Positions 11,851-35,200 of a stretch of 64,000 nt of DNA are shown piece after piece (position 1 is the stretch's first letter; each line of letters begins with the position of its first letter). Location of the stretch: positions 3,247,501-3,311,500 of the forward strand of contig FP929003.1 in NCBI GenBank assembly GCA_000196815.1, written 5' to 3'. The notes below the pieces were generated by a model that saw only the letters and a list, made by a program, of their open reading frames with translations, ran no database searches and was not told where the DNA came from. The position numbers and the translations under genes are program-made. The stretch is from Nitrospira defluvii. Lineage in GTDB: Bacteria > Nitrospirota > Nitrospiria > Nitrospirales > Nitrospiraceae.

Positions 11851-13635
11851 TTAGAGGACCTTGCCCTTCTTCTTGTTGGCTCGGCGGGTCAGCATCCACC
11901 CTTCCAAAAACACCACGCCAACTGCAATAACCGCTGGGTAAATGTACACTTCCTGCGGAATCGGAGGCTGCAAGATCGTGTAGTAGAAGGCCGACACGGC
12001 CATCTTCCGTCCCGCATCTCCGTTGTGTCCGTCCCAGGCAAAGAAGACCATCGGAATGTACTTACCGATGTCGAATCGCGTGTACTCATCATAATCATCC
12101 TTGTCGCCCTTGAGCGGACGGGAGATCATGACAGTCCACTGCCCGTTCTTCCATTCTGACTTCAACAACTTAACTTTTTCTTCGAAGTCATCGCGTTCTT
12201 CGAAGTCCTGATCCCAACCGGTTCCCTTAAAGGACCGGAGGGAACCGTCCGCCTCCCACTTCAGAATGTCGGCGTTGAACTTCGCATCACCCCACAGGTA
12301 TCGCGGCTTGAACGGAGCAGGAATCTCCTGCCACTTGATGGGGAATTGGAATGCGATACCATCGTTATAAACGGAATAGTTATTCTGAGCAGCAGCAATT
12401 GACCCTTCTTCTCCGGTCTTAGGTGCCTGCTCCTTCACACCAAAGTTCTCAACATTGACTTGAGTGGGTGCCCAAGGAAGTTTCCCCTCGGCAACACTCT
12501 TCGTCCGGTCATCCCACTGGATCAGGTACACCACGTTCTTTTCGTTGTACAGTGACTTGACCCAGATATCATCGATTCGATTGACGAAGTTACGAGGCTT
12601 GTGGGTGATCTGGCCGCCCATCGCCACATAACGACGGCCCTGCTTCTTCCACATCTCATTTTCTGGGTCGTCGGAAATCTCACCCTCGACTGGAGCAGAA
12701 GGAACAACGAAGTTGATCTTCGGCTTGTCGGTCAAAGGATCAATACCAAGAGGCTTACCCTCGGCATCGCGCTCACACAACGAGTTTACGAAGTTCGCGA
12801 TGCTCCAACGGTCTTCTACCGACGTGCTATCCGCGAATGACGGCATTGGCGTCCCGTTTACGCCAGTTGAGAACGTACGGAAAATGTTCCGCACATTATA
12901 GGGGTCTTGACGGCTTCCGCGGAAATTCCAACACTTGTGCCAATCGGCCGGTTGAATTGAAAAGCCCCAGTCATCTTTCAAATTGAAGGCATTCCCATCC
13001 CCACGCCCTTCCACACCATGGCACTCAATACATTTCTTGTCGACAATCAGCTGGGCACCCTTCTTAATGCTCTCTTCAGTCGGCTCAGCAGGTTTGATGG
13101 TGCCAAGTTGAAGAATCGTCTGGGTCTCAGACTGCTTGTCAGTAAACTTTCGATCCTTAACCAACTGGGTCGTGACAAATGACAACACCTGAAGCCGCTG
13201 TTCCTCGGTCAAGATACCTTCCCAAGGTGGCATGGCAGAACCGGGGAGACCATGCGTGACCGTATCGAGCAGGTCATTCTTCCCAGAATCAGGAGTCTTC
13301 TCGTTGTAATTGAACAGGGGCAACTCTCCGCTCGCTGTGTGACGGATTTTAAATGTGCCCTGGTTGAAATTTCTCGGTCGTGGCCACAGACGATCAGCAC
13401 CTGGCCCATCACCAGCACCATCCACGCCGTGACACCAGACGCACTTGGTGAAATAGACACGCTTTCCGGCTTCGATCATCTCGGCTGGCGGAGCCGGCGC
13501 TAACTCGCCCTTGGCAAAGCCTTCCGGAAGATCTCCAGCATGGCCCAGCCCCACCGCAGTTGCGGAAAGGATGAGGGCACCTAAGGCCGCTCCGATAATG
13601 GGCGTCGCCTTTACGTTCATACGAAGTTTGCTCAT
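11851..13635 (-). CDS. Dihaem cytochrome c with ethylbenzene-dehydrogenase-type haem b domain (NxrC-like), membrane-anchored
   Basis: 594 residues when started at ATG 13635, which has a clear AGGT ribosome site and begins a signal peptide; upstream in-frame codons lack one. Two cytochrome c domains carry CVWCH (65-69) and CIECH (202-206). Residues about 320-560 resemble the ethylbenzene dehydrogenase/NxrC/DMSO dehydrogenase gamma family, which binds haem b through Met/Lys-type ligands. A single helix (about 565-585) followed by a basic tail anchors the protein with its haems outside the cell membrane. It is the last gene of the bd-like oxidase operon. This fusion could carry electrons from a periplasmic molybdoenzyme to the oxidase (inference). 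Confidence 0.85.
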   Translation of the reverse strand: MSKLRMNVKATPIIGAALGALILSATAVGLGHAGDLPEGFAKGELAPAPPAEMIEAGKRVYFTKCVWCHGVDGAGDGPGADRLWPRPRNFNQGTFKIRHTASGELPLFNYNEKTPDSGKNDLLDTVTHGLPGSAMPPWEGILTEEQRLQVLSFVTTQLVKDRKFTDKQSETQTILQLGTIKPAEPTEESIKKGAQLIVDKKCIECHGVEGRGDGNAFNLKDDWGFSIQPADWHKCWNFRGSRQDPYNVRNIFRTFSTGVNGTPMPSFADSTSVEDRWSIANFVNSLCERDAEGKPLGIDPLTDKPKINFVVPSAPVEGEISDDPENEMWKKQGRRYVAMGGQITHKPRNFVNRIDDIWVKSLYNEKNVVYLIQWDDRTKSVAEGKLPWAPTQVNVENFGVKEQAPKTGEEGSIAAAQNNYSVYNDGIAFQFPIKWQEIPAPFKPRYLWGDAKFNADILKWEADGSLRSFKGTGWDQDFEERDDFEEKVKLLKSEWKNGQWTVMISRPLKGDKDDYDEYTRFDIGKYIPMVFFAWDGHNGDAGRKMAVSAFYYTILQPPIPQEVYIYPAVIAVGVVFLEGWMLTRRANKKKGKVL

Positions 13636-13682
13636 TGTTAACCTCACCACCTGTTCTCCCAGGTTGTTTGTAAGATTCAGGA

Positions 13683-14720
13683 TTAGTCCCATGTCCGAGG
13701 ATAGTATCCCGTGTGCCAATACTCGAACAGGATCACCTTCCAAATTTCATCCGTTGTCAGGTGCTGTTCCCATGGTGGCATAACCGAGGCCCAAGGGAAT
13801 CCTTCGTTCGGCAAACCGATGCCGCCCTTAGCTACGCGCCAGAAAATGAAGGTTTCCTGCAACTGTGCAATCGTTCCCGGGTCTGTGAAGTTAGCGGGAA
13901 TCGGATTGAACGCAAAGGCGTGGAGACCGCGGCCGTTCAGATTGTCACCGTGACAGAAGTGACAATTCTGGAAGAATATTTCGCCACCTTCCCGAACGTA
14001 CTTCAGATACCCTTCAGCCTTGTCATCCCATGGGTTGGCATTGGGCGCCATCAGTCGTCCCATACCCTGTTCGACGATCAGCTTATTGCTGTATGCCTGG
14101 TCAAACTTCCCCTCGAGATTAACCCGGTAAGGATTCTGTGACGTTTGCAGGGTGTAGGTCTTGCCGTGCACCTTCGTGCTAGCGGGTGGTGCAGGATGCA
14201 CGGTCCGCAACTCAATCGGCTCATCGACACTCGGCTTCATCGTCAGGAATGAGAAGCCGCCGATGAGTAACGGAAGAAGAATCAAGTACATCGTGCGTAG
14301 CGCCTTGTGGAAGCCAGTGTTGGCGTCCAAGACATTGAGAATTGGTTGACGAAACTTCTTCCAATCCTCTTCATTGGCTGACACCCACATAAATACGGCT
14401 ACGAACGATACGGTCCCGTACATCGCACGCACGCTGAATGGAATCGGCGGATAGATACGGAACTTGAGATAGGTTTGGATAAAGGCCCAAAACAACACAC
14501 CCTGCCAAAACCGAGGGAAGGCAACTCCCATCGAGTTGGCCAGATAACTCAGGCCGGTGAAGCCAGCCACGAATACGGCCAGCTCACTTAAGACCTGCAT
14601 GGGCATGTAGCCCTCAACGAGCCTGACGGTGTTCGAGGGAATCACTCCGAAGATCATTCCGATCAACATGAGCAGTCCCAGGACGCCGATCAATGCCCCG
14701 ACTGACATTAATGCTTTCAT
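13683..14720 (-). CDS. Membrane-bound monohaem cytochrome c
   Basis: 345 residues from ATG 14720, chosen because a GGGAG/GAGGA ribosome site precedes it; an upstream in-frame extension to 14768 would overlap the previous gene's end. About four hydrophobic segments lie in the first 160 residues, followed by a periplasmic part with one haem motif CHFCH (253-257). The C-terminal MPPWEQHLTTDEIWKVI sequence is typical of class I cytochromes and supplies a likely methionine ligand. It sits between two other cytochrome genes in the bd-like oxidase operon and is probably a structural subunit of that complex. I do not recognise a specific named family for the membrane part. Confidence 0.8.
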   Translation of the reverse strand: MKALMSVGALIGVLGLLMLIGMIFGVIPSNTVRLVEGYMPMQVLSELAVFVAGFTGLSYLANSMGVAFPRFWQGVLFWAFIQTYLKFRIYPPIPFSVRAMYGTVSFVAVFMWVSANEEDWKKFRQPILNVLDANTGFHKALRTMYLILLPLLIGGFSFLTMKPSVDEPIELRTVHPAPPASTKVHGKTYTLQTSQNPYRVNLEGKFDQAYSNKLIVEQGMGRLMAPNANPWDDKAEGYLKYVREGGEIFFQNCHFCHGDNLNGRGLHAFAFNPIPANFTDPGTIAQLQETFIFWRVAKGGIGLPNEGFPWASVMPPWEQHLTTDEIWKVILFEYWHTGYYPRTWD

Positions 14721-14768
14721 GTCCTCATCTCCCTTTCTTCCGCAATAGCAACCAGATACCCATCGCAA

Positions 14769-16088
14769 CTAGGAGGCTTTTGGTGGCTCTTTCCCCTCCT
14801 GGACCTGCGAGAGGTAATCTACAAGTTTCTTGAGCGCGCCAGCACTAAGCTTTTGACCGAACACCTTAGGCATGGTGTTGTCGGGGAAGCCTTTCACAAC
14901 ATATGCGCTCGGCTCGACGATGGACTCCATAATATAGTCGGGAACGCTCTTGGCTTTCCCTTTGTAGTCCTTGTCCTTGATCCGTAGTGGGGCATTGGTG
15001 CCCTCGACCAATTTCGGACCGATCGTACCAGTCGCGCCAGCAATTCCAGGGATCGTATGGCACGCCACACATTGCCCCTTCGCGAAAATCTGATCGACAG
15101 GCTCTGTCCCGTCCGCCATGAGCGCGGATGCACCACCGCCAGCTGCCTTGTCGCCTTCTGTTGGCGGCTTTGGACGCTCAGAATCCGGGATGAACTTTTC
15201 ATAGGACTTCACAATTTCATCAAAGCTCGGCGCCTCACGCCCTTCACGCACATAGAGCCAGGTGTCGACAGCCGCTAACTCGGGCAAGGACAAAGAGATC
15301 GGCGGCTTATGGATGGATGGCATCGGGCTGACTTTGTCATTGGTACCCTTCACACCGTAACCAGCCACGACGAAACAGCTCGGACAGGCATGGGATTCAG
15401 CAATGTATTCCTGTCCATTTTCAGCCGTTCCAGATCCAGGGAATGCTTCCTTCTGGTCTGAATCACGCGCAGCAGCATTTCCCTTATGATAGCGAGGATC
15501 TTCGATCTGCGTTCCCGCACGCTCTGGCAATCCATCGAGGTTCGGCGCACGCTCGCCCAACATTCCCTTGTGGAAAGCATGGCAGAGTGGACACTGCCCC
15601 TTACCGATCGCTCCCTGAACTTTATTCTGACCAACTCCGCCAAAGATAATCTTCTCGCCTTCGTCGGCAAGCTCCGTCTGGGGCATGTTGCTGAAGTCTT
15701 TCTTTTCTTCGATGGGCGGAAATCCACCTTCCACCTGAGGCAACCAGTTACCGTAACCGGAGAGTGCGGCGGCGATGAAAAACATGAAGCCGCCGATTTT
15801 CAGCAAGGCGCTGATGTTCGTAAAATACAGCGCCATCATGAACGTCATCGATGTAATAAGAACCAGAGACACCGGCAAGAGCCGTGACTCTTCGAAGAAG
15901 TTCATCTTGTAATTGGCGATTGCCATAAAAAGTAGCACCGCGCCAATAATGCCGATGAACGTCTTGAACACCGCACGCTTGTTGGCAACTGGGTCTGAAA
16001 TGGAGGCCTTGAAATAAAACATTAGGCCAACCAGGATGCCTAATGCTGGCCAGCCCATCGCTAAGGCCGCTTTAATGAGTTCAATCAC
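14769..16088 (-). CDS. Membrane cytochrome c with two haem motifs and one degenerate CxxC
   Basis: 439 residues from GTG 16088, preceded by a strong AGGAGGT site. Three to four N-terminal membrane helices (to about 110) precede a periplasmic cytochrome region. CPLCH (166-170) and CVACH (340-344) are complete haem c sites, the latter with KGFPDNTMP providing a likely Met ligand (M406). A third, CPSC followed by F (235-239), lacks the haem-binding histidine, so it is a structural disulphide, a metal site or a lost haem. It lies between the bd-like oxidase gene and another cytochrome gene and is likely part of the same complex, delivering electrons from the periplasm. Confidence 0.82.
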   Translation of the reverse strand: MIELIKAALAMGWPALGILVGLMFYFKASISDPVANKRAVFKTFIGIIGAVLLFMAIANYKMNFFEESRLLPVSLVLITSMTFMMALYFTNISALLKIGGFMFFIAAALSGYGNWLPQVEGGFPPIEEKKDFSNMPQTELADEGEKIIFGGVGQNKVQGAIGKGQCPLCHAFHKGMLGERAPNLDGLPERAGTQIEDPRYHKGNAAARDSDQKEAFPGSGTAENGQEYIAESHACPSCFVVAGYGVKGTNDKVSPMPSIHKPPISLSLPELAAVDTWLYVREGREAPSFDEIVKSYEKFIPDSERPKPPTEGDKAAGGGASALMADGTEPVDQIFAKGQCVACHTIPGIAGATGTIGPKLVEGTNAPLRIKDKDYKGKAKSVPDYIMESIVEPSAYVVKGFPDNTMPKVFGQKLSAGALKKLVDYLSQVQEGKEPPKAS

Positions 16089-16174: not shown

Positions 16175-18094
16175 CTAGTGACCCACTGCCGGCGCAGCCG
16201 CACGACCAGGCACGGCTGCCTTCGCCTCGACTGGCGCTTTCTTAGCACCAAGGGCTCCCAACCAAAACACGAACATAATTGAAATCCAAAAGAACAGTAC
16301 GTTCGCAGAAATCATGTTCGCGGCAAAACCCACCGTGTGAGTATAGGCCCACGGTGAATTGTCACGCATGATTTCGTTGACGTGCCAGAATAAGCGGACA
16401 GAGGACCTGATGTATCCCATCAGACCCATCATCCACGTGAAGGCCGTGGCCAACATGATGAGCGCATATTGAGACCGGGCAGAAATCTTACCCCACTCAA
16501 TCGGTCCCATCTGCTTGGCCCCCTTCATCATGACGCTGTTAAGCGCGAACATGAAGAACAGGCACGACAGCGTGGTAGCCACCTGCGGAACGGACAAGCC
16601 AACCCGTACGTTCGCCGGAATGTAGTAACCGTACACAGCCAACATAATGATGTTGAGATACGCAAAGAAGAAAAAACAGCCCATGAAGATATTGCCGAAC
16701 TTTGACCACGATACCGTGGACACCTTGTTGCCTCGCATGTACCACACGAAGCTCAAGACCGTGGTCGTAATGATGACGTTGATCCCACCGTTTTTGGCTG
16801 ACATCACGCCATAGTTACCCAGCACTGGATGCTGCTGGCCACCCATTGCTTTCAGTTCGGCGGGAGTCATAACGATGGTATGGGGCGTAATAAACACCAG
16901 ATATCCGCATGTAAGCAGGAACACAAGATACTTGATGTAGCGCTGATATTTTTCCGCACCCCGCATCCGTCCGAGAGCTTGCCAAAGATAGTAATTCGTG
17001 CTCAAGAACAGAATTCCAATCATGGTGGCCTGAATGATGAACAACCAAGCCAACAAGCCGCCCATCAAGGTAATGCCCATCTGCTGCCGATAGGCATAGA
17101 CTTCGCGCATCAGCCAGTATCCGGCGAACGGCAACGGAATCAAGAACGCGACGCCGAGAGCCATGGCGATGTAACCCATCCAATCGTAATGGGCGCGCTC
17201 CTCATCGGTCTTAGCCGACAAGAAACGATAGGCGGCATAGGCTGCCACGACGCCACCACCGAAGGCCATGTTGCCAAGAATACGATGGAGATTGAGCGGG
17301 TTCCACAACGCGGTGTGGATCACGTGCCAGATGTTACCAAGATACCGGCCTTGCTCATCAACGCCGGCCGGAGACATCATGAAACCGATCCATGAATTCG
17401 CCAGGAACATCAAGATTGTACCGATGACGTTCAGGACGACCGACATGCTGAGGTGAATCCACTTCAGGAATCCCTCCTTCATCTTGTCCCAGCCGTAGTA
17501 GTAGATGTAGAGGGTTCCGCTTTCGGCCACGAACATCAATGCATAGATATGCATGACCGGCCTAAAGATACCCGAGAGATACTGGAAGAAGGCCGGATAG
17601 AGAGTCAGGAATGTAAAGATCAGAATTCCGCCCAAAATGGCCGTCAGAGAGTACGCCGTCAGACTGATCTTAATAAAGTCATAGGCCAACTGATCATAGC
17701 GCTTGGCCATAGCCTTATCCTTGGTCACGACTCCCATAAATTCGATGACCATACAGAAAATGGGAACAGCCAAAACGAAGCTGCCATAATAAAGGTGCTG
17801 CTGATTGGCAAACCAGAGCAGGACGCGACTTTCAAAGTTGTATCGCGGGTAGTCCTTCTCGCTGTCCGTCGTCTTAGGAGCCGGTGGGCCCGAGACAATA
17901 CCTTCCGTCTTGTAATAAACGTCCTTACCCTTCTCAACCTTTGCGTCACCACCCTCTTTTTTCACGCCGGCAGCGGGAGCGCCACCGTCGCTAGCAAGGG
18001 CAGGGATCGCAACCAGAATAGGCAAGAGGAGGAGGCCGATCATCGCGCCAAGCGCCATGATCGACATCAACTTCGTGCGGGTTACAGAGCCCAT
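16175..18094 (-). CDS. Cytochrome bd-like terminal oxidase subunit
   Basis: 639 residues with a signal-like first helix, a roughly 50-residue periplasmic stretch and about 13-14 membrane helices. It is distantly related to CydA but lacks the canonical quinol-loop and GRQPW signatures. It corresponds to the unusual bd-like oxidase proposed as terminal oxidase of Nitrospira (from memory). Candidate haem, metal or proton residues in helices are H100 (in QQHLYYG), H182, E191, H214, H257, H260, H270 (NLHR), E331, H405 (TPHT) and H422 (QQHP). It has an AAGGAGG ribosome site. It is preceded by two small membrane-protein genes and followed by three cytochrome c genes, which suggests a complex that takes electrons from cytochrome c rather than quinol. 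Confidence 0.85.
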   Translation of the reverse strand: MGSVTRTKLMSIMALGAMIGLLLLPILVAIPALASDGGAPAAGVKKEGGDAKVEKGKDVYYKTEGIVSGPPAPKTTDSEKDYPRYNFESRVLLWFANQQHLYYGSFVLAVPIFCMVIEFMGVVTKDKAMAKRYDQLAYDFIKISLTAYSLTAILGGILIFTFLTLYPAFFQYLSGIFRPVMHIYALMFVAESGTLYIYYYGWDKMKEGFLKWIHLSMSVVLNVIGTILMFLANSWIGFMMSPAGVDEQGRYLGNIWHVIHTALWNPLNLHRILGNMAFGGGVVAAYAAYRFLSAKTDEERAHYDWMGYIAMALGVAFLIPLPFAGYWLMREVYAYRQQMGITLMGGLLAWLFIIQATMIGILFLSTNYYLWQALGRMRGAEKYQRYIKYLVFLLTCGYLVFITPHTIVMTPAELKAMGGQQHPVLGNYGVMSAKNGGINVIITTTVLSFVWYMRGNKVSTVSWSKFGNIFMGCFFFFAYLNIIMLAVYGYYIPANVRVGLSVPQVATTLSCLFFMFALNSVMMKGAKQMGPIEWGKISARSQYALIMLATAFTWMMGLMGYIRSSVRLFWHVNEIMRDNSPWAYTHTVGFAANMISANVLFFWISIMFVFWLGALGAKKAPVEAKAAVPGRAAAPAVGH

Positions 18095-18156: not shown

Positions 18157-18279
18157 TTACTTTCGAAGGAGATACCAAAAGTCCAAACCTTGCGCATCCA
18201 TCAGAAAATGATCGACCGCTGCAAAAAACGAGACGCAGATCACCACAGAGACGACGACATACACAATTGTTTGGCCCAT
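18157..18279 (-). CDS. Small single-helix membrane protein, candidate oxidase subunit
   Basis: A 40-residue protein starting at ATG 18279 behind a GAGGGGGG ribosome site. It has one hydrophobic helix (about residues 5-27: IVYVVVSVVICVSFFAAV) and a short tail ending FWYLLRK. It lies about 60 bases before the bd-like oxidase gene and is read in the same direction. Tiny single-helix subunits such as CydX and CcoQ are standard in terminal oxidases, so this is a plausible structural subunit. No sequence family is recognised. Confidence 0.7.
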   Translation of the reverse strand: MGQTIVYVVVSVVICVSFFAAVDHFLMDAQGLDFWYLLRK

Positions 18280-18329: not shown

Positions 18330-18446
18330 TCAGCAAGGGCACTGAATCCCGCCGAACCAGTAAAAAAACCAAAGGCTCACTGCCAGGGTGATGTAGAAAA
18401 TCATTTTGCCGATCTTAATCTGGACGTCATCCTGAGCAGCTTCCAT
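18330..18446 (-). CDS. Small single-helix membrane protein, candidate oxidase subunit
   Basis: A 38-residue protein from ATG 18446 with a GGGAG ribosome site. A short charged N terminus (EAAQDDVQIKIGK) is followed by a helix (about 15-34) with several aromatics and a C-terminal CPC motif. It is the first gene of the bd-like oxidase operon; the next small gene begins 50 bases on. The terminal Cys-x-Cys could bind metal or form a disulphide on the far side of the membrane (inference). No family is recognised. Confidence 0.7.
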   Translation of the reverse strand: MEAAQDDVQIKIGKMIFYITLAVSLWFFYWFGGIQCPC

Positions 18447-18547: not shown

Positions 18548-18652
18548 ATGGCTAAAAATTCAAAAGTGTTCGACATTATAGTTTTGGCTGGAATGGTTGT
18601 CAATATCATTTTGGCCGTGTTTCTGATCCTCTACTACTTCGATTTCCTGTGA
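18548..18652 (+). CDS. Divergent 34-residue membrane protein
   Basis: ATG 18548 to TGA 18652. A basic N terminus (MAKNSK) is followed by one hydrophobic helix (about 8-31) ending in YYFDFL. A weak AAAGGGA ribosome site lies before the start. It is transcribed away from the oxidase operon and its 3' end overlaps the convergent FGE-domain gene by 47 bases. Charge distribution and helix length look genuine for a small membrane subunit, but coding status is unproven and no homologue is recognised. Confidence 0.5.
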   Translation: MAKNSKVFDIIVLAGMVVNIILAVFLILYYFDFL

Positions 18653-19559
18653 TTTTCTCCGGCCCCACGCCCCCAGACGACCGGCCATTTTCTGCACTGG
18701 ATTGAGCGCAACGAAAGCCGATTGTTTCATCCCGAAAATCCTGCATCATCTTGCTGCGCGCGGTAATGCGTAAATCAGAGCCCGAACTGGTATACGCAGC
18801 CCCGCGCAGCACTTTATAGGTTCCGTACTCAGGACTTTCAGGATTCCGCTCTGAAGCCGCAGCATACGCCCCCTCAAGGTACCAATCGTTCACCCATTCC
18901 ATCACATTGCCCGCACCGTCCATGACACCATAGGGACTGGCGTCACTCTTCACACGCCCCACCGGCGCCGCCACGTCAAACCCATCGTCCACGCGAGCCC
19001 AATTCGCCGCGTTCGGCACTTCCACGTTTCCCCACGGCCATAGGCGACCATCAGGCCCGCGCATGGCCTTCTCCCACTCCGCCTCGGAGGGCAACCGCCT
19101 TCCGCGCCACTCGCAGTAGGCTTTCGCATCCTCCCAGGAGACATAGACGGCCGGCTGATTCACGCCTCGCATACGCAGCGTATTTTTCGCATACCGTGAG
19201 GGCGGTCCTGACTTTCGATGTCCCGTTGCCTTCACAAACGCGGCATACTGCGCGTTCGTCACCTCGTAACGATCAATCAGAAACTGGTCGAGGTAAATCG
19301 TCCGCTCGGGCTGCTCGTCGAACCCGCCCCGATTGGTCCCGAACACAAACGGCCCCGCAGGAATCACAACGAGCTCCTCTTCAAGGGGTTCTTCAGCGGA
19401 GGCCGGCTCAGGATTAGAGCCCCCCTGATTCTGCTCGGCCGATTGAGGCTCAGCTTCGAACGGGGTGGATATCGTCCCGCGAAGAATCGCGATGATGGGT
19501 AAGCTGGCGGCAAACAACACCACCAGAAGGAAGATCACTTTGAATCGCGTTTCGAGCAT
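18606..19559 (-). CDS. Membrane-anchored formylglycine-generating-enzyme-type (SUMF1) domain protein
   Basis: 317 residues: an N-terminal helix (about 7-27), a linker rich in E, S and P, then an FGE-sulfatase domain (about 65-285). Landmarks are PAGPFVFGTNRGG, YVSWEDAKAYCEWRGRRLPSEAEWEKAMRG, GVMDGAGNVMEWVNDWY, VLRGAAYTS and IGFRCAQ. True FGEs use Cys/Cu to oxidise a sulfatase cysteine; many relatives are structural or have other roles, and no sulfatase is seen here. The C-terminal 35 residues are polar and low complexity. It is the last gene of the train that includes a second FGE protein and the bd-like paralogue. Confidence 0.85.
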   Translation of the reverse strand: MLETRFKVIFLLVVLFAASLPIIAILRGTISTPFEAEPQSAEQNQGGSNPEPASAEEPLEEELVVIPAGPFVFGTNRGGFDEQPERTIYLDQFLIDRYEVTNAQYAAFVKATGHRKSGPPSRYAKNTLRMRGVNQPAVYVSWEDAKAYCEWRGRRLPSEAEWEKAMRGPDGRLWPWGNVEVPNAANWARVDDGFDVAAPVGRVKSDASPYGVMDGAGNVMEWVNDWYLEGAYAAASERNPESPEYGTYKVLRGAAYTSSGSDLRITARSKMMQDFRDETIGFRCAQSSAENGRSSGGVGPEKITGNRSSRGSETRPK

Positions 19560-19570
19560 GATGCAACCGA

Positions 19571-20485
19571 CTACTTAACGACCACATCAGCCTCGATATC
19601 TTTGGCACAGCGAAAGCCAACCGTTATGTCATGCCGCCACGGCTTTGCCTGGAATCGCTTTGACGCACGCACGTTTCGCTTGGTCTCCCGCCAGGAACCG
19701 CCACGAATAACACGCTGCTCGCCCTGGTCAGGCCCCTTTGGGTCACGATACGGAGAGCCCCGATACGAATTTTCGTCGTAAACATCCGCGACCCATTCAC
19801 CGACGTTGCCCGTCATATCGTAGATTCCGTAGGGACTGCGTCCCGACTCGAACGACCCCGGCGGAGCGAGGTAGCGAAACCCATCCTCATTTCCATCGAT
19901 GTTCGCGTAGCCCACCACGAACTCCTCACCCCAGGCGTAGCGTCGCTTCCCCTCTCCGCGAGCGGCTTTCTCCCACTCCGCTTCCGTCGGTAACCTCTTC
20001 CCGGCCCATTTGCAATAAGCCTCTGCATCGTCCCACGTCACGGCAATCATCGGATATTCCGGCTTCAGTAATTTGGCAGGGTCCTCTTCGAACACTTCGA
20101 TCTTTCGCTTGATTCGCTTCGTCATCCTGGCAAAGCGATCATAGGCATCCTGCGTGACCTCATGCCTATCCAGAAAATACGATTTCAAGTAGACCTGATG
20201 CTCCGGCTTTTCATCCGGATCACTATCGTTGTCCCGACTGCCCATCACAAACGGCCCCTCAGAAACTTGCACCATGTCACGGCCGTCATCGCCGACAAGC
20301 GTCTTATACATCGAGAAGTCCTGCGCGGCGGCCGCGGCAACCGGCTTGACCTCCGTGGTGATCGACAGTGCCAGTTGCCGCATCTGCTTGGCCTTATAGG
20401 ATTCGTAGACCAAGCCACCAATCATCAGGATAAACGATCCGAACACAAAGATAATCGACCCGATCAATACACCCCTGTTTTCCAT
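19571..20485 (-). CDS. Membrane-anchored formylglycine-generating-enzyme-type domain protein (second copy)
   Basis: 304 residues with an N-terminal membrane helix (about 6-29), a short linker, and an FGE-sulfatase domain (about 70-300). Landmarks are SEGPFVMGSRDND, KSYFLDRHEVTQDAYDRF, AVTWDDAEAYCKWAGKRLPTEAEWEKAARG, IYDMTGNVGEWVADVY, VIRGGSWRE and VGFRCAKD. It is a tandem relative of the next gene (11-base gap). Both are anchored with the domain outside the cytoplasm. The pairing with electron-transfer genes suggests a periplasmic complex role rather than sulfatase activation (inference). Confidence 0.87.
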   Translation of the reverse strand: MENRGVLIGSIIFVFGSFILMIGGLVYESYKAKQMRQLALSITTEVKPVAAAAAQDFSMYKTLVGDDGRDMVQVSEGPFVMGSRDNDSDPDEKPEHQVYLKSYFLDRHEVTQDAYDRFARMTKRIKRKIEVFEEDPAKLLKPEYPMIAVTWDDAEAYCKWAGKRLPTEAEWEKAARGEGKRRYAWGEEFVVGYANIDGNEDGFRYLAPPGSFESGRSPYGIYDMTGNVGEWVADVYDENSYRGSPYRDPKGPDQGEQRVIRGGSWRETKRNVRASKRFQAKPWRHDITVGFRCAKDIEADVVVK

Positions 20486-20500
20486 TGCGTTACTCGCACC

Positions 20501-20902
20501 TCATGATTTGGTGACCGCGGAATGCGCCGCGGTTGAGTCATCACCCGCTTCCAGCGCTGCAGCTTTCCGCGCCGCACGCATGTCCAACAACATGGAAATC
20601 TGCACGCCGAGGAATCCTCCCATCGCCGCGCCGGCTCCCGCCCCAAACGAGACCTTTTCGAATCCCGCAACCAGCCACGCCAGCAGTCCGCCCAGCACCG
20701 TCCCGACTAAAATGCTGACCAGGAACCGACGCCCGCCAAGAAAACCAACCACCGCACCAAGCGCCAATCCCAATCCGGACGCCAAGGGAATAGACGAGCC
20801 GCCCAAAATGGTGCCAATCAAGGCACCGACGGTGCCCATGACCACGACGCCGAACACGACGTCGAACAGCGCACTGGTCGAAGGTCGGCTCAACGCTGAC
20901 AT
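20501..20902 (-). CDS. Glycine-rich small membrane protein, function unknown
   Basis: 133 residues from ATG 20902 (GAGGT ribosome site; an in-frame upstream start at 20932 lacks one). It has three or four hydrophobic glycine-rich segments (VVFGVVVMGTVGALIGTILGG, LALGAVVGFLGG, VGTVLGGLLAWLVAGF, GAGAGAAMGGFLGV) resembling glycine-zipper helices, then a polar tail. No recognised family. It lies between the DUF3047 gene and the FGE genes with gaps of 15-35 bases, so it is probably part of the same transcript. Confidence 0.65.
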   Translation of the reverse strand: MSALSRPSTSALFDVVFGVVVMGTVGALIGTILGGSSIPLASGLGLALGAVVGFLGGRRFLVSILVGTVLGGLLAWLVAGFEKVSFGAGAGAAMGGFLGVQISMLLDMRAARKAAALEAGDDSTAAHSAVTKS

Positions 20903-20936
20903 GAAGACCTCATCGTCGCAGAAAACGCGCAAACAC

Positions 20937-21614
20937 TCACTTGGCCTGACTCACCGTAACTGCGCCAAAATCGATCTCAACACCGGGGCCGGCAAACAGC
21001 GAGATTCCCCACGCTTTCTCTGCGGGCTCATGCTTATGAATACGCTTGAAGTCCTCATAGACATTCACGCGTTCTTCAACCCATTCCCCGACCGGAAGCA
21101 CTCCGCTCTGCACGACCAACTCGGATCCACTGAACATCCCCCCCTCGACAAACGTCCCTTCCGGCTTTCCGGCGCTCCAGATGTATTTCGTAAATACCGG
21201 GATAAACATCAAATCTGTATCCAGCGAGGCATAGAGCGCAGCAATCGGCTCCGACCCGGTGGGTGCCTTATGGAGACGCCATCGCCAGGTTAGTACCGGG
21301 TAGACCTTCGGATCCCAGTCGATTTTGCGTTTTTTCACACGCTGGCCCGCATCCTTGGCAGCGAGAAACTTTTTCCCGTCCTGTGACTGAATTTTGTAGG
21401 CATCTCGCCCCTTTGCCTGACTACGCTGGTTCTCATGCTGCCAATCGATCGGAAACCCATCCTGATCCGCCGACTGAAAATCCTCCAACACCAACACACC
21501 GGCTTCACCGGCATAAACCGGGACATCAGCTCCCATCGCACCGCACAAGTTCGCCAAACCCCACAATCCGATCGCCGCGACAAACATCCTCATAGCCATC
21601 TCACATTCCTTCAT
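20937..21614 (-). CDS. DUF3047-type exported protein
   Basis: 225 residues with an N-terminal signal sequence (to about residue 28). The body matches the DUF3047 pattern: VLVLEDFQS, GFPIDWQ, YPVLTWRWRLHKAPTG, ALYASLDTDLMFIP, KYIWSA, EWVEERVNVYEDFKRIH and a C-terminal IDFGAVTVSQ. These are beta-rich periplasmic proteins of unknown function. The start could be ATG 21614 or ATG 21599, since both have AAGGA-type sites. It directly follows the bd-like paralogue (8-base gap). Confidence 0.75.
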   Translation of the reverse strand: MKECEMAMRMFVAAIGLWGLANLCGAMGADVPVYAGEAGVLVLEDFQSADQDGFPIDWQHENQRSQAKGRDAYKIQSQDGKKFLAAKDAGQRVKKRKIDWDPKVYPVLTWRWRLHKAPTGSEPIAALYASLDTDLMFIPVFTKYIWSAGKPEGTFVEGGMFSGSELVVQSGVLPVGEWVEERVNVYEDFKRIHKHEPAEKAWGISLFAGPGVEIDFGAVTVSQAK

Positions 21615-21622
21615 CCACGTCC

Positions 21623-23488
21623 TTATGCCTCATGAGACGGAGACGGCAGAAAGCCTGCCTCCTTCTCCGCACTCACATCTTCATGCATCACCGGCTGCTG
21701 CCCGCGCTGACAGACCCAGAACAGGAAAAATACCGCCCCCCAAAACAGGACCATGTTGATCGTGACCATTTTGGCAGCGAATCCAAGCGATGGCGTAAAC
21801 GCCCAGGGAGACGTATCCGGCATCAACTCGTTGACATGCCAGGCCAACCGTCCGGAAGAGCGGATGTACCCCATCAACCCCATCACCCAGGTAAATGCCG
21901 CAGCCAATCCGAATAGGCCGACCATGCCGCGGACCGAAATCTGCCCCCATTGCACAGGACCGTGAATCATGGCACCTCGCAACATGCGCCGGTTCAGCAA
22001 CAGGCCCAGCGTGACCACGAGCAACGTGGTGACGGCCTGCGGACCTGACAGCCCGACGCGGAGACTGGCGGGAAGATAAAATCCATAGACCGACAAACCG
22101 ATGATGTGCGCCGCTCCGAGGCCGAACAGGGCCCCGAGGATGACATTCCCTGCTTTAGCCCAGGAGATCGTCATGGTTCGATTTGCGCGTCGATAAAAGA
22201 TGTAACTCAAGGCGGTGATGCAAATCATCACGTTGACCGCGCCGTTCTTCGACGACATGACGCCGTAGTTTCCGATGACCGGATGCTGCGCCCCGCCCAT
22301 GGCTTTCACCTCTGTCCCGGTCATCAAAATAGTATGAGGCGTCAGCCAGATAAACAGACAACCCGTCAGCGCGAGCAGCAAATATTGATAGTAGGGCTGA
22401 TAGCGCTCACCGCCGCGAATCCGCCCCATGCTCTGCCAGAGATAGTAATTCACCCCGAGAAAAAGGGCGCCGATCAACAACGCCTGCACTACGAAGAGCC
22501 AGGTCAGCAGCCCGCCCATCATCGTGACGCCCATGCTTTGACTATACGCATAGACGGAACGCATCAGCCAATAACCGGCGAACGGCATCGGCAAGAGGGC
22601 ACAGACGGTTACAAACAAGAACACGTAGCCGACCCAATCGTAATAGGCCCGCTCTTCCTGACTCTTGCCGGAAAAAAACCGATAACAGGCATAGGCCAGG
22701 ACGACCGCCCCACCCGACATGATGTCTGCAAGGAATCGATGCAAGTTCAACGGATTCCAGAGTGCCGAGCGGAGCAGATGCCAGGGATTCCCCAAATACC
22801 GTCCCTGGCCGTCGACGCCGGACGGCGCCATCATGAAGGCGGACCAAGCGTTGGCCAATAACAACAGCGATGTGCCGAACACCACCGCCAGCACACCGAT
22901 CGACAGGTGGACCCACTTCGATCCCGGGGCTGCCATCCGATCCCAACTGTAGTAGTACGCAATCGTCAGAAACGTCGTGCCGACAAACACCAGTGCATAG
23001 AGGGGCATCATGACCTTGAAGGTGCCGCCCATGTACTGCATGAAGCTGGGATACAGGGTGATAAACATCGTGAGCATCACGCTCCCGACCGCCGCGGTCA
23101 CAGACAGTGCCAGCAGCGCCACCTTCAACAGATCTTGCGCCAACCCGTCATAACGCAAGGCCATCGCGGGATTTTTCGCAACCAACCCCAGAAATTCCAA
23201 GAGGACGCAAAAGATCGGCAAGGCTAGAACGAAACCACCGAAGTACGTATGCTGCTGAATGATAAACCACATCAGCAACCGGCTATCGAGTGACCCGACT
23301 TGCGGGTAGTGGTTCTCATTCGCCGTCGGCGCCGAGGGACCGTCCGGAACCCCGGGCGTATGGAAATAGACATCTGCGGAGGGGTCGGCAGCCACCAGCA
23401 ACGATGGACTCAGCAGCAGAACACTCACGGCCACCAGCAACCCGCATAACAACAGCATCACGGACGGAAGCGGAAGGCGTTTGATCAT
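21623..23488 (-). CDS. Second cytochrome bd-like protein, lacking several candidate ligand residues
   Basis: 621 residues, clearly paralogous over its whole length to the 639-residue bd-like oxidase, with the same helices and shared motifs (QQHxYxGxFVLAxPIF, GVDxQGRYLGN, NPLNLHR, TPHTI, KAMGGxQHPVxGNYGVMS, WHVNE). H80, H194, H237, H250, H385 and H402 are kept. However, the positions matching H182, E191, H260 and E331 of the oxidase are P162, T171, R240 and S311. It is therefore probably not an equivalent oxygen reductase; an electron-transfer or scaffold role is possible. The start overlaps the upstream membrane-protein gene by four bases (ATGA). Confidence 0.8.
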   Translation of the reverse strand: MIKRLPLPSVMLLLCGLLVAVSVLLLSPSLLVAADPSADVYFHTPGVPDGPSAPTANENHYPQVGSLDSRLLMWFIIQQHTYFGGFVLALPIFCVLLEFLGLVAKNPAMALRYDGLAQDLLKVALLALSVTAAVGSVMLTMFITLYPSFMQYMGGTFKVMMPLYALVFVGTTFLTIAYYYSWDRMAAPGSKWVHLSIGVLAVVFGTSLLLLANAWSAFMMAPSGVDGQGRYLGNPWHLLRSALWNPLNLHRFLADIMSGGAVVLAYACYRFFSGKSQEERAYYDWVGYVFLFVTVCALLPMPFAGYWLMRSVYAYSQSMGVTMMGGLLTWLFVVQALLIGALFLGVNYYLWQSMGRIRGGERYQPYYQYLLLALTGCLFIWLTPHTILMTGTEVKAMGGAQHPVIGNYGVMSSKNGAVNVMICITALSYIFYRRANRTMTISWAKAGNVILGALFGLGAAHIIGLSVYGFYLPASLRVGLSGPQAVTTLLVVTLGLLLNRRMLRGAMIHGPVQWGQISVRGMVGLFGLAAAFTWVMGLMGYIRSSGRLAWHVNELMPDTSPWAFTPSLGFAAKMVTINMVLFWGAVFFLFWVCQRGQQPVMHEDVSAEKEAGFLPSPSHEA

Positions 23489-24570
23489 GACGACGCTCTC
23501 TGGCTGTTCTTGTCAAAGACAGCCGCAGATTCAGTCAATGCCGTACCAGCAATGGCTTCGCGGGACTTGCCGAGAATGCCCATGACGAATGGGCAGCGCA
23601 ACAAGGCGCTGGGCACTCCTCCAGGCTGACGATTTTCAATCTCCCGCCGATGTCCCAGGTAATAGCAGTACAGCGCCATCACGCCACCGACAAGGCCGGC
23701 GACGCCAGCGAAGAGTCCGGGTGAACTCATCGGCTGTTTCAACACATACAGACAACCGCCGACCAACACCAGATAGTAGGTCGAGGCAAAGGCCAACCCG
23801 GGCCACCACCAAAACTTCACCAATTCAGTCCAGCGGGTCGAGGACAATCCGGTCATCCAGGCTGCCCCAGCTCCTTGCCCGGCGAAAAACGCCAGGAGAC
23901 CAACCGTTCCCGCCGCCATCGTCACGACCGCGCCTTGCGCCAACACGGCCATGTCGCCACTGACAACCGCCGCCAGAAGCATTGAGAGACCCACGCAACT
24001 GACCGCTCCCGCCGCCACCCACCCCGCCAGTGCGGGCGTGACTCGTGCCAGCAGAGCACGAAGCCCCGCGCCATCAGGAAACGTGACGAACGGCCGCCCG
24101 CTGGCTTCAAGCCATCGCACATACCCGATCTCAAATGCATCGCGCGCGACCGCCGTACTGGGAATAATCATCGCCATCATGGCCGGGCCATCGGGATGCT
24201 TGGCATAGTCATATCCAACCAGCCAGAGTAGCGCCAGCACGAGCAGCGACAACTGCACTCCGTACACAAAACCGATCCAGGCTAGAATCCATCCGATACG
24301 TCTGGCTCCATCCGCGCTCGCTAATTGCGCAAACGGCACCCCTCGACCGACGCGATAGGCACAGATCGCCGTCACCAGCGACACCAGGCCGCTCAGGAGC
24401 AGCAGCGTCACCGGCTCTGCCAGCGACATGCCATGCTTCGCCGACCGGTATACCGCAAACGCCACCAGCCCCGGGACAAACATGACCAGGCGCTTTCTTG
24501 TTCGAACCGAATCTTCGGTGACGGCCAGCGTCAAACTTGGAAGGACTCGTAATGCCAATCGGTGCAACAT
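23485..24570 (-). CDS. Polytopic membrane protein of unknown family
   Basis: About 361 residues from ATG 24570; an in-frame TTG at 24591 is less convincing and neither has a strong ribosome site. Eight to nine hydrophobic helices cover the length, with a polar cytosolic-type segment (GRPFVTFPDGAGLRALLARV) in the middle and a polar C-terminal tail. Intramembrane motifs such as WIGFVYGVQ and KFWWWPGLAF are visible, but no family is recognised. The stop overlaps the start of the bd-like paralogue by four bases, strongly suggesting joint production and perhaps a shared complex. Confidence 0.7.
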   Translation of the reverse strand: MLHRLALRVLPSLTLAVTEDSVRTRKRLVMFVPGLVAFAVYRSAKHGMSLAEPVTLLLLSGLVSLVTAICAYRVGRGVPFAQLASADGARRIGWILAWIGFVYGVQLSLLVLALLWLVGYDYAKHPDGPAMMAMIIPSTAVARDAFEIGYVRWLEASGRPFVTFPDGAGLRALLARVTPALAGWVAAGAVSCVGLSMLLAAVVSGDMAVLAQGAVVTMAAGTVGLLAFFAGQGAGAAWMTGLSSTRWTELVKFWWWPGLAFASTYYLVLVGGCLYVLKQPMSSPGLFAGVAGLVGGVMALYCYYLGHRREIENRQPGGVPSALLRCPFVMGILGKSREAIAGTALTESAAVFDKNSQRASS

Positions 24571-24646
24571 GTTGTCAGTCGCCAAGCACAATGATAGGGG
24601 GCGCTAGAACGACGCCGGGGACTCTGCGCAAGAGCTGCCTCAGCAT

Positions 24647-25147
24647 TTACGCATCATCACGCTGAGCCGCCATGCCGAAATATCGCGCCTTCACTTCTTC
24701 CATCAGCGCGACGGTCACAGCGCGTTCACCACGATCCACCGCCGTTCGTTCCAACTCAACCCGGGCCATGGCCCGAACCGGCGCCGGCACATTGGCGAGG
24801 CGCTGCTCTGCATCCGAGTCCCATGAGACCATATCGCCCGTTTTCGCCTGATCGATCAAATCGTAGGTAATCACTCGTTGCCGTCTGGTCCGGGCAAACC
24901 CTTCCACCAGTTCACGCAGGACTGGAACGGCATAGGGAGGAACACGATCCAGCCGATGCCGGGCATCATCAGTCCACATCAGGCGATCGACTAACCCGTC
25001 GACCTGCCCCACCGGCACATCGACCCCCACTACCCACTGGCAGGGCCGACACTCCGAACGGACAAACCACGTGGGATCGCCCTCACGGGAGATACGCTCC
25101 TCAACACCCTCGGTATGCATCCATCCGCCGCACCCGCACACAAGCAT
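24647..25147 (-). CDS. Protein with Cys-rich N terminus and two PCP_red-like domains
   Basis: 166 residues from ATG 25147 (GAGGG site); upstream in-frame sequence is a shadow of the DUF420 gene. The first 45 residues hold four cysteines (CGC then CRPC), like a zinc ribbon. Two repeats follow that resemble the PCP_red domain of light-independent protochlorophyllide reductase: one beginning WTDDARHRLDRVPPY and one beginning WDSDAEQRLANVPAP, each ending in an alpha-helical ERT/ITYDLIDQA-type segment. PCP_red is also known outside phototrophs, with unclear function. It is placed between a DUF420 gene and membrane-protein genes of the bd-like paralogue train. Confidence 0.65.
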   Translation of the reverse strand: MLVCGCGGWMHTEGVEERISREGDPTWFVRSECRPCQWVVGVDVPVGQVDGLVDRLMWTDDARHRLDRVPPYAVPVLRELVEGFARTRRQRVITYDLIDQAKTGDMVSWDSDAEQRLANVPAPVRAMARVELERTAVDRGERAVTVALMEEVKARYFGMAAQRDDA

Positions 25148-25182
25148 ATCGGCCCTCAGCGCTTTATCTCCGCTCGACGTTC

Positions 25183-25899
25183 TTACCCGATTTTCCCAGG
25201 ATACAGGATGTACAACATGGCATACGTAAAGGTTCCGGTCAGAAAGAGGATGCAGTAGACGATCATGGTGAACCGGCCGAGGGCGCGGTGCCGCTGCCCG
25301 CCATCGGGCCAGATCCGTTGGATACCCATCTCCACTGCAAACACGATCGCGACCAGGGTGAGAAACCCGATATAGACCTCCAGCTTGCGCATGGAAAACC
25401 CGGCGGACATGACCCGTGCCCCGAATAACAGCATCACCACTGCCAGGAGCGCCGCAAATATCAGGCTCACCTTTTTCCACGATGTCTGCAACCGAGCTAC
25501 GCTCAGCACCCGTGCGCCGCTCAGAAATTGCTGCGAACGGAACCCCAGCACAATCATGTACACGGCCATGACCAACCCGATGATCACCAGAATGATATGG
25601 ATTGTCAGCACAGGGATGAACACGTAGTCATACAGGGCCTGGGACCCCCCGAATCCTTCTTTTCCTTCGAACGCCAACACCCCCAACTGCCGAAACAAAT
25701 AGTAGGCGGTGAAGAATCCGACCATGGTCACCATCCCGCCCAACATGAGCCAGTGATGGTGGTGCCCACGATGCTGCTTGGCCTGCAACCATCCGATGAT
25801 GAAGAGGCCGGTAAACAGCGTGGCCATCAACTGACTGAGATCGGCCCCCATTGTGGCGTGGGTGCCGAAGAATCCCGGCTGACGCAAAAATTCAAACAT
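25183..25899 (-). CDS. DUF420 membrane protein
   Basis: 238 residues with six to seven helices. Its core resembles the DUF420 (YozB/CtaM-like) family linked to cytochrome oxidase assembly: a histidine cluster after helix 1 (KQHRGHHHHWLM), YDYVFIPVLTIHIILVIIGL, and HRALGRFTMIVYCILFLTGTFTYAMLYILYP at the C terminus. Conserved histidines in helices could bind haem or copper. It lies eight bases after the methyltransferase gene and upstream of the bd-like paralogue. A role in assembly or electron transfer is inferred from the family. Confidence 0.72.
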   Translation of the reverse strand: MFEFLRQPGFFGTHATMGADLSQLMATLFTGLFIIGWLQAKQHRGHHHHWLMLGGMVTMVGFFTAYYLFRQLGVLAFEGKEGFGGSQALYDYVFIPVLTIHIILVIIGLVMAVYMIVLGFRSQQFLSGARVLSVARLQTSWKKVSLIFAALLAVVMLLFGARVMSAGFSMRKLEVYIGFLTLVAIVFAVEMGIQRIWPDGGQRHRALGRFTMIVYCILFLTGTFTYAMLYILYPGKIG

Positions 25900-32270: not shown

Positions 32271-35200
32271 CTACTTGGCCGCGACAGGAATCGCGTGCGC
32301 AACCGGCTGCTCGACCTCGGCACTCTTCATACCGGCGCTTGCCCCAGCCAATGGCAGCAGTCGTGTATCGCCGGACGGCAATACCCGCACATATCCCCAC
32401 TGACCGGACTGCGAGTACGGCAAGCGCTGGTTGCTGTACACATAATCCCCGGGGAGACGATACATTCCACCCGCCGAGGGGAGGAACGCGTCGATCGTCT
32501 CAGAACCGGAGAACTCCACGACACTGATCAGGTCAGCGCCCCGCATAAACGGCTCGATCGGCCATTCGTGCTTCTCAACGCTGAACATACCGTTCTGCTC
32601 GTTGCTGACACCCAACACATGAATACGCACCGGATCGCCGGCATGCGCTTCGATGAGCGGGGTCGCCGGATCTTCCGGCTTGTCGGCCTTACAAGGCTGG
32701 AACACCTTGCCGAGCGAGCAACCCTGCTCTTCACGGAACTTGTACGGTTCCGACCGGTAATTGACGCCGGTCAAACCCGCCACGTTCTGCACGTAGGGCA
32801 TGAAACTCGTGCCGATGATGTTGTCTTCATCCTGGAAGAACAACGCCACGTCACGATAATTCGCCCGCATTTCATTGCCCGGCACCGAGCGATCGATGAT
32901 GACATCGGCTGCCCAGGCATTCTTGTTGGACAAATCCGCGCCGGTCTTGGGATCACGATACTTCGATCCTTTGGGTCCGACGACGACGGCGCCGAACAAC
33001 CCGTTCCGAGGATTGGTCATCACATTGCCCCAATCCCACACCAACGAAGTCGTCTCGCCGTTAAACGGATCGGCGTAATAGGTGTAGTCCCGCTCACCTC
33101 CCGGGGCCACGGTCTGGTCTCCCGGATTGTTCCCCACGTTCGCGCCCATGGAATCCTTCGGATCGAAGGCCAGGCCGATCGCAGAGAAGGAGGCTTTGCT
33201 GTCCTTCATCTTGTTCTTCAAATGGACCTTGACGCAATCACCGCTGTTCACACGGAGCGTCAACGGCATCGGATGCGCACCACCGGCGACTTTCGCAGTG
33301 TCCTCTTCCAATGCATAGATCTTGGCTTCGGCATTGGTCATGAGGATCCGTCGCTCAAAGTCCACTTCGATGGATTCCGGTGCCTTGGCATTGAACTTCA
33401 TGCCGGCATAGTCCATCGCCACCACGTTGAACTGCTTGACGGGAGCATCGGCGGGACACACCGGCAGAGGCTTCGGCATCTCGCCCTTGTTGGAGAAGCC
33501 CGCGGGCAGCTTCTTCAAATCAGACTGCTCCTTGTCCAACACCCGAATGATTCCCCAGCCACCCTCGGAGAACTTCGAGGAGCGGCCGTTGAAATGGATG
33601 TAGTCGCCGGCCTGGTGCCGTGATCCACCCGCCTCTGGAACCACCAGATCATACCGCTCGGCAATACCGATATGGATCGAGTTCTTTCGATTGGCATCCG
33701 AGGCATACCGCTCAGTCCAGAACGTGTGGCCGGACAGGGTCCAGACCATCGACTCGTTCATGAGGGTGTGCAGCAGACGGAAGACCATCGTGTCACCGAC
33801 ATAGGCGCGCAAGGTGGGCGTGTACGGATCGCCGTGCACCAGGCTGCTGAAAATCTGTGACGAATCAGGATTGGTCGCCAACCGCTGCGCAACCGGCGCC
33901 GCCCTGAAGTTCAAGCCGCTGCCGGTGGTGTGCGTGCCACCGTTCAGGAACGGCATCGGCGTCATGTAGATCTTCTCCGGCATCATGAAGGAGACGGTCT
34001 TTCCCGCCTCGAGCGCCACTTCAATCGGCTGCCCGGGAGGATTGCCAGCCGTCACGATGTTGACGGTATGCGGCACGGTATCGTGCACTTGCACCATCAA
34101 TTCACGGAAGCTGTTGTTCACGCCATGACCAACCGGCTCATTCGTGTGAATGTCCGCAATCGGTCCGCTACGGATCAACTTTCCGGTCTTCGGGTCATGA
34201 TACGTCGATCCGACCGGCTCGGCGATGAAGGTGCCGAAGCCGCCGTGCGGCCAGGTGGTCGCACCGAACGCGTGATCGTGCCAGAACACGGTCCCCACGT
34301 CCGCATCGACCCAGAACCGCTGACGCACGAACTCAACCGTGACGATGTCATTGGCCGGGTGATCGTTCTTCAGCCCTTTGGCCAATGTAATCGTATTGCC
34401 GTTGATGGCCTTGATGCGGGAGATTTCATTCCCCTTCACATTGTCGGCACCGACAAGCAGCAGGGTCCCGACATGGAACTGCTTGGCATTCTTCACCGTG
34501 ATCGTATTCGCGCCCTTCTTGGCTGGCGCGGTCACGACGGTGTTCATCGGGACAGGAAGTCCCTTCGCGTTCTTCTTCTCCAGCATCGTGAACGGACGCA
34601 CCGATTGCTCATAGGAGAATCCGGTGATCACGCCGTCGGACGCCTGGTTGTCGAACTGCAGGAAATGCCAGTGGGTGTTGATCTTCGACGACTGGAAGTT
34701 GGTGTAGTCATCGTCGTCCCACTCGCTGGTCAAGGTCCAGTCCACGCAATCGTAGATGTTGCCGCGGACGACCAACGGATACTTCAGATCATCGTTTTTC
34801 CGAATCTCCGCCTCTTCTTCGTGCAAGACATAGATCAAGCCGTTCGGATCGATGACCGGCGGCTCCTTGCCCGTTTTCTTGGCGATGGTGATCGGGAGCT
34901 TAATGAAGTGGACATTGTAGTGCTTCCGTCCGGCATTCTCCGGGCAGAGACTCCAATTGCCGTTTTCACCAGGCAGGGCCTGATCGACGCTTTCCTCACC
35001 GTTGGCATCCCGGCGGATCATCTCCAACCAGGGCGCACCCACGTGGTTCGGAGAGAACATCACGCGTCTCCCGAAATGCGGGGTGAGGTGAGGCCAGGCC
35101 ACTTTACCGGTCAACGGCTCGAACGTGATCGGATGCCGCTTGCCCGGATGGGTCGACTTATACTTCGGATTGTCGATCGCACTTTCCGGTTCGCTCAATG

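Follow-up and report, generated by a model that had tools for sequence, protein, structure and literature searches.

Conservation and stepwise residue change in a cytochrome bd-like paralogue of Nitrospira defluvii

The gene bd4 of Nitrospira defluvii encodes a real, conserved and diverged cytochrome bd-like paralogue, in which one near-invariant carboxylate has been lost clade-wide and another at the level of a single genus. In Nitrospira-type nitrite oxidisers, bd-like proteins are the leading candidates for carrying electrons from nitrite to O2 and, against the gradient, to quinone. Among them bd4 is a natural variant: haem ligands stay, carboxylates go, and the intermediates survive in living lineages.

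The gene lies at positions 21623-23488 (minus strand) of the window, i.e. the whole stretch of 64,000 nucleotides that was analysed, and its frame of 621 codons is intact. The 621-residue product is a member of the CydA superfamily, as indicated by a match to PF01654 (4e-16), a CydA fold and orthologues in Nitrospirales. The match scores 59.1 bits at a cut-off of 26.2 and covers only the N-terminal 247 of the 418 model positions. Five proteins of the genome match PF01654: one canonical CydA and four bd-like proteins. bd4 and its neighbour bd3 (16175-18094, minus strand; 639 residues; PF01654 5e-20) are the published bd-like_4 and bd-like_3. The former is described as a copy located some genes downstream of the latter in all Nitrospira genomes (PMC6606698), and the bd-like_4 of Nitrospira moscoviensis in that paper is the same gene as bd4; its main text holds no residue-level analysis, gene-module account or expression statement for bd-like_4.

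A sequence-only reading of this DNA held that bd4 aligns along its full length with the operonic bd-like protein, that four residues differ and that other histidines are kept. All of this is borne out. The two proteins are 53% identical over 587 residues, and in the full-length MAFFT alignment 324 of 618 aligned columns are identical. The four pairs (bd3/bd4) are exactly H182/P162, E191/T171, H260/R240 and E331/S311, the bd4 codons being found on the minus strand at 23003-23005, 22976-22978, 22769-22771 and 22556-22558, respectively. Eight of the twelve bd3 histidines are present in bd4, and the six family-invariant ones are all among these eight. Other bd3 residues are lost as well (E207, E247, H302, E533 and H586). 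In total 12 of the 28 aligned His and Glu of bd3 are replaced (43%), compared with 48% of all columns; since they are replaced no more than the average column, the choice of these four positions is, taken alone, unremarkable.

Conservation of the four positions

The family set contains 183 bd-like proteins from Nitrospirota, which were aligned and placed in a tree, with whole-genome searches made within the phylum. E191 is near-invariant among these proteins, and E331 is present in 130 of 130 bd3, N1, N2, basal and phylum-level sequences, i.e. in everything but bd4 and a single divergent group at class level. At the E331 position bd4 has Ser or Ala in 42 of 43 sequences from families f1 and f2, a single f2 protein still having Glu, and Ser in both f3 sequences. 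H182, in contrast, is a histidine only within the bd3 clade (53/54), and H260 is variable in the N1, N2 and basal groups. The proposed terminal oxidases, N2 (NIDE0901-like) and its neighbour N1, have mostly I, L, V, Y or F at 182 and W, N, Y or A at 260. The claim that four candidate redox or proton residues are lost can therefore be kept for E191 and E331, but not for H182 and H260, which are not general bd-like residues. Variability among bd-like oxidases, which would refute that claim, is found at the two histidines, while the two glutamates are near-invariant; the oxidases compared are themselves only proposed. Sorting the residues into family-wide ones (E191, E331 and six histidines) and others (H182, H260) guides mutagenesis and the choice of paralogue.

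The family-invariant histidines are bd3 positions 100, 214, 270, 405, 422 and 571. As all six are kept in bd4, its haem-binding part looks maintained, with one or two carboxylates gone, and bd4 is likely haem-bearing. The family has 130 conserved columns; every bd4 has lost 18 of them, and the N. defluvii group a further five. Conserved columns of functional type are lost no more often than others: 49 of the 57 H/E/D/K/R/Y/W/M/Q/C columns are kept.

The class-level relatives have a divergent second bd-like paralogue at eight loci, with E331 kept in three of the eight, and for six of them a sister relationship to bd4 is possible (SH-aLRT 93). In one genome roughly 2.4 kb separates this paralogue from bd3, which is encoded on the other strand.

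Next to the family set, 80 bd4 loci were fetched, giving 81 bd4 sequences with the window's own, together with 60 bd3 sequences. All 60 bd3 have H, E, H and E at the four positions. In Nitrospira bd4, P162 is found in 80/81 and S311 in 81/81. At position 171, 62 sequences carry E and 17 carry T; at position 240, 67 carry H and 14 carry R. T171 is confined to the N. defluvii group, i.e. the 17 bd4 sequences more than 88% identical to that of N. defluvii, and is present in all of them. It is always paired with a second loss in the next helix, where the invariant N222 has become V or I (17/17). R240 is nested within this group, in 14 of the 17 sequences with T171. Earlier, E191T and H260R had been read as traits of the paralogue; they are not, since among the 64 bd4 outside the N. 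defluvii group E171 is kept in 62, and H240, like the equivalent of N222, in all 64. Given these nested states, the "four losses" combine two changes found throughout the clade with two confined to one genus. The four substitutions are not a single loss of an active site. A mapping of N222 to E. coli S140 was dropped, as the alignments gave no support for it.

In E. coli CydA the haem ligands are H19, H186, M393 and E445, E107 is a residue of the proton channel, and K252 and E257 belong to the Q-loop. H80 and H250 of bd4 are the equivalents of H19 and H186 (bd3 100 and 270). bd3 E191 aligns with E107 by MAFFT and hhalign, and by phmmer with the same Glu of 9r2g, a solved CydA; this equivalent is absent from the N. 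defluvii bd4, which has T171 instead. The sequence alignment of bd4 and E. coli CydA is unreliable in the C-terminal half, where M393 and E445 fall. bd4 has W330 and Q335 at the aligned positions of K252 and E257 and lacks most of the Q-loop, in a region where the alignment is uncertain. To summarise the comparison with canonical cytochrome bd (CydA, E. coli bd-I), bd4 shares the fold and the equivalents of H19 and H186, and most bd4 share that of E107 too. As aligned, bd4 differs in lacking a quinol Q-loop and in having Y where E. coli has E99; it is also without an adjacent CydB and carries extra helices. Absence of the quinol-site residues from bd-like proteins has been reported before (PMC3578206).

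The AF2 model of bd4 is of low-to-moderate confidence (pLDDT 65.7). It matches 7ose_A with Z 23.8 over 326 residues at 3.9 A (VIA), indicating a CydA fold over residues ~60-600, and its best ten structural matches are all CydA chains (Z 21.8-23.8). With Foldseek, CydB chains were also weakly matched. S311 is placed after TM6, where canonical CydA carries the Q-loop, in a segment where the model is weak and confidence is low. For bd3 the AF2 model is too poor (pLDDT 59).

Gene surroundings of bd4 and bd3

The start of bd4 overlaps by 4 bp with h368 (23485-24591, minus strand), an unclassified membrane protein with about seven predicted TM helices, which matched no family. It is found in 214 of 235 Nitrospirales genomes and in none of four from family f4. 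On the other side, 8 bp past bd4, follows a DUF3047 protein (20937-21614; PF11249), then h143, a small unclassified multi-TM protein (20501-20932), and two SUMF1/FGE-like domain proteins (PF03781), FGE2 (19571-20485) and FGE1 (18606-19559), all on the minus strand; the DUF3047 protein and h143 are supported also by synteny. No CydB is adjacent to bd4, as neither h368 nor the DUF3047 protein matches a CydB family; the idea that h368 is a relative of CydB was given up, having no sequence support. In three genomes h368 contains one in-frame stop, so that the partner of bd4 may there be lost or misassembled. Between DUF420 and h368, at 24647-25480 (minus strand), there is a frame with a C-terminal PCP_red domain of the protochlorophyllide reductase subunit B type, in a non-phototroph.

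In f1, f2 and f3 the genes consistently run DUF420-h368-bd4-DUF3047-h143-FGE2-FGE1-bd3-cyt c-cyt c, with h143 undetected in some cases. The view that bd4 is a second family member in a gene set of its own is thus supported, the module from h368 to FGE1 being syntenic through three families. Families f4, f5 and f6 have the bd3 cluster and FGE1 (f5 and f6 also FGE2), without bd4, h368, DUF3047 and h143. The Nitrospira-type NXR-A (at least 70% identity) is likewise found only in the three families with bd4, while bd3 occurs also in genomes without NXR. The distribution of bd4 is consistent with an arrival alongside nitrite oxidation; the co-occurrence is weak evidence, since one gain in the tree could account for it.

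In our family tree bd4 clusters with N1, N2 and bd3 and falls outside all bd3, which speaks against a recent duplication inside Nitrospirales; the AU test, however, does not reject a clade of bd4 and Nitrospirales bd3 (p 0.46). The split between bd3 and bd4 may thus be recent or older, and bd4 may accordingly have lost H182 or never had it.

bd3 is followed on the same strand by a dihaem c-type cytochrome (14769-16088; CPLCH, CVACH; PF00034) and a membrane monohaem c-type cytochrome (13683-14768; CHFCH; PF13442), whose true start is probably at ~14720. Next comes alt_NxrC_2 (11851-13743, minus strand), a dihaem cytochrome c with an EB_dh haem-b domain (PF00034, PF13442, PF09459), the true start of which is probably inside this frame; its size agrees with Table 2 of PMC6606698. 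It had been assumed that the operonic bd3 is an oxidase. This is not established: anammox bacteria, which are anaerobic, and Nitrospina share the conserved cluster (PMC3578206), and the function of bd3 has been termed enigmatic (PMC6606698).

Upstream of the bd3 operon there is a predicted perfect sigma-70 promoter, TTGACA-N17-TATAAT (18575-18603, minus strand; 12/12 consensus). Over 102 bd3 upstream regions in the class the match is 12/12 in 75 and 11/12 in 12 more (87/102), compared with at most 9/12 upstream of bd4. It is located ~500 bp before bd3, giving a leader of nearly 500 nt, in which an Rfam scan returned only a sub-threshold match. Between promoter and bd3 are two frames for single-TM peptides, each preceded by a Shine-Dalgarno sequence and conserved through Nitrospirales, with weaker counterparts in the class: sORF1 (18330-18446, minus strand; 38 residues, ending ..FFYWFGGIQCPC; pN/pS 0.06-0.21) and sORF2 (18157-18279, minus strand; 40 residues, ending ..MDAQGLDFWYLLRK; pN/pS 0-0.12). 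Neither matched a family in Pfam, and no such micro-proteins were found beside bd4, N1 or N2. By analogy with CydX in CydAB, they may be small subunits of a bd3 complex. In short, bd3 resembles bd4 in its fold, invariant histidines and identity over the full length, but differs in having E191, E331 and its own H182, a near-perfect promoter, two micro-proteins and an operon with c-type cytochromes.

Possible roles of bd4

Our preferred explanation, which we put at slightly less than an even chance, is that bd4 is a haem-bearing electron-transfer paralogue that probably does not reduce O2. Since histidines of the haem type are kept and one or more carboxylates are lost, bd4 probably moves electrons instead of reducing O2. 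As a diverged paralogue of bd3, the CydA-superfamily member encoded in the alt_NxrC_2 cluster, it would still bind haem b and would form a membrane electron-transfer subunit beside a complex of bd3, cytochrome c and alt_NxrC_2. There it would act between periplasmic cytochromes and the membrane, presumably with h368 as its nearest partner, and would not reduce O2 using protons through the usual CydA channel. Several observations count against this: most bd4 beyond the N. defluvii group retain E191, so the proton path is intact in most of the clade; E331 falls in a low-confidence segment of the model, and one f2 protein still has Glu there; the link with NXR may go back to one gain; and bd4, without a promoter like that of bd3, may be weakly expressed. 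The earlier description of bd4 as probably non-oxygen-reducing is in this sense plausible, but it cannot be concluded from the four positions alone.

The name of the OR-N bd-like family reportedly goes back to Murali et al. 2021. The pair OR-N1/OR-N2 (CydAA'; NIDE0901 and its neighbour), a putative cytochrome c-linked terminal oxidase, belongs to the same superfamily as bd4 and has the H19 and H186 equivalents, at 31-38% identity to bd4; the pair is without His at 182, and mostly also at 260, and keeps both Glu. Reduction of O2 by this family with cytochrome c as donor is putative and lacks experimental confirmation (PMC10839748). That bd4 has remained an OR-N-type oxygen reductase, with an altered entry path for protons or electrons, would agree with its CydA fold, its H19 and H186 equivalents and the E191 of most of its clade. 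We find it quite unlikely, given that the near-invariant E331 is lost clade-wide, that E191 and N222 are lost in one genus and that N1/N2 and the canonical CydA are better candidates in the same cell. The two Nitrospira paralogues of the OR-N pair are thought to work together as CydAA' (PMC12342949, PMC10839748), and bd4 could similarly be a CydA'-type partner, pairing with bd3 in a heterodimer in the way that CydA' (or CydB) pairs with CydA, and having mainly a structural role. The spacing of bd4 and bd3 (always ~5.5 kb in Nitrospira, and within ~6 kb in those f1-f3 loci that have enough flank) and the weak similarity to CydB chains point this way. However, bd3 needs no bd4, as it occurs without it in f4 and f6; bd4 keeps all family-invariant histidines, which a structural partner would not have to do; and the 511-bp gap and bd3's own strong predicted promoter make separate transcription likely. 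All in all such a partnership is rather unlikely.

The kept histidines and lost carboxylates would also fit haem sites without proton-coupled O2 chemistry, in a protein that handles another ligand (e.g. NO) or senses the redox state. With two FGE-like proteins and one DUF3047 protein as neighbours speaking in its favour, this is to us very unlikely. It is scarcely credible that bd4 is a decaying duplicate under relaxed constraint. Within the genus it evolves faster than bd3, whose dN it exceeds by a factor of 2-5, and the fact that one genus has lost conserved residues step by step might be taken as a sign of decay. However, dN/dS is 0.024-0.053 for bd4 (0.007-0.014 for bd3), and such strong purifying selection means that bd4 is not decaying; by this test the decaying duplicate was rejected. 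Further, the frames are intact in ~80 orthologues and synteny is kept across three families. bd4 is functional but less constrained than bd3.

A wider version of the electron-transfer reading, which we regard as doubtful, is that bd4 and h368 make up a haem-b membrane complex of their own, which appeared together with nitrite oxidoreductase in the common ancestor of the three Nitrospirales families. It would serve nitrite oxidation, for example as an electron injector for reverse electron transport that does not reduce O2, its proton channel having been lost in steps within the N. defluvii genus. As a separate observation, a very large multicopper-oxidase-like protein (1621 residues) is encoded near the cluster, at 32271-37136 on the minus strand.
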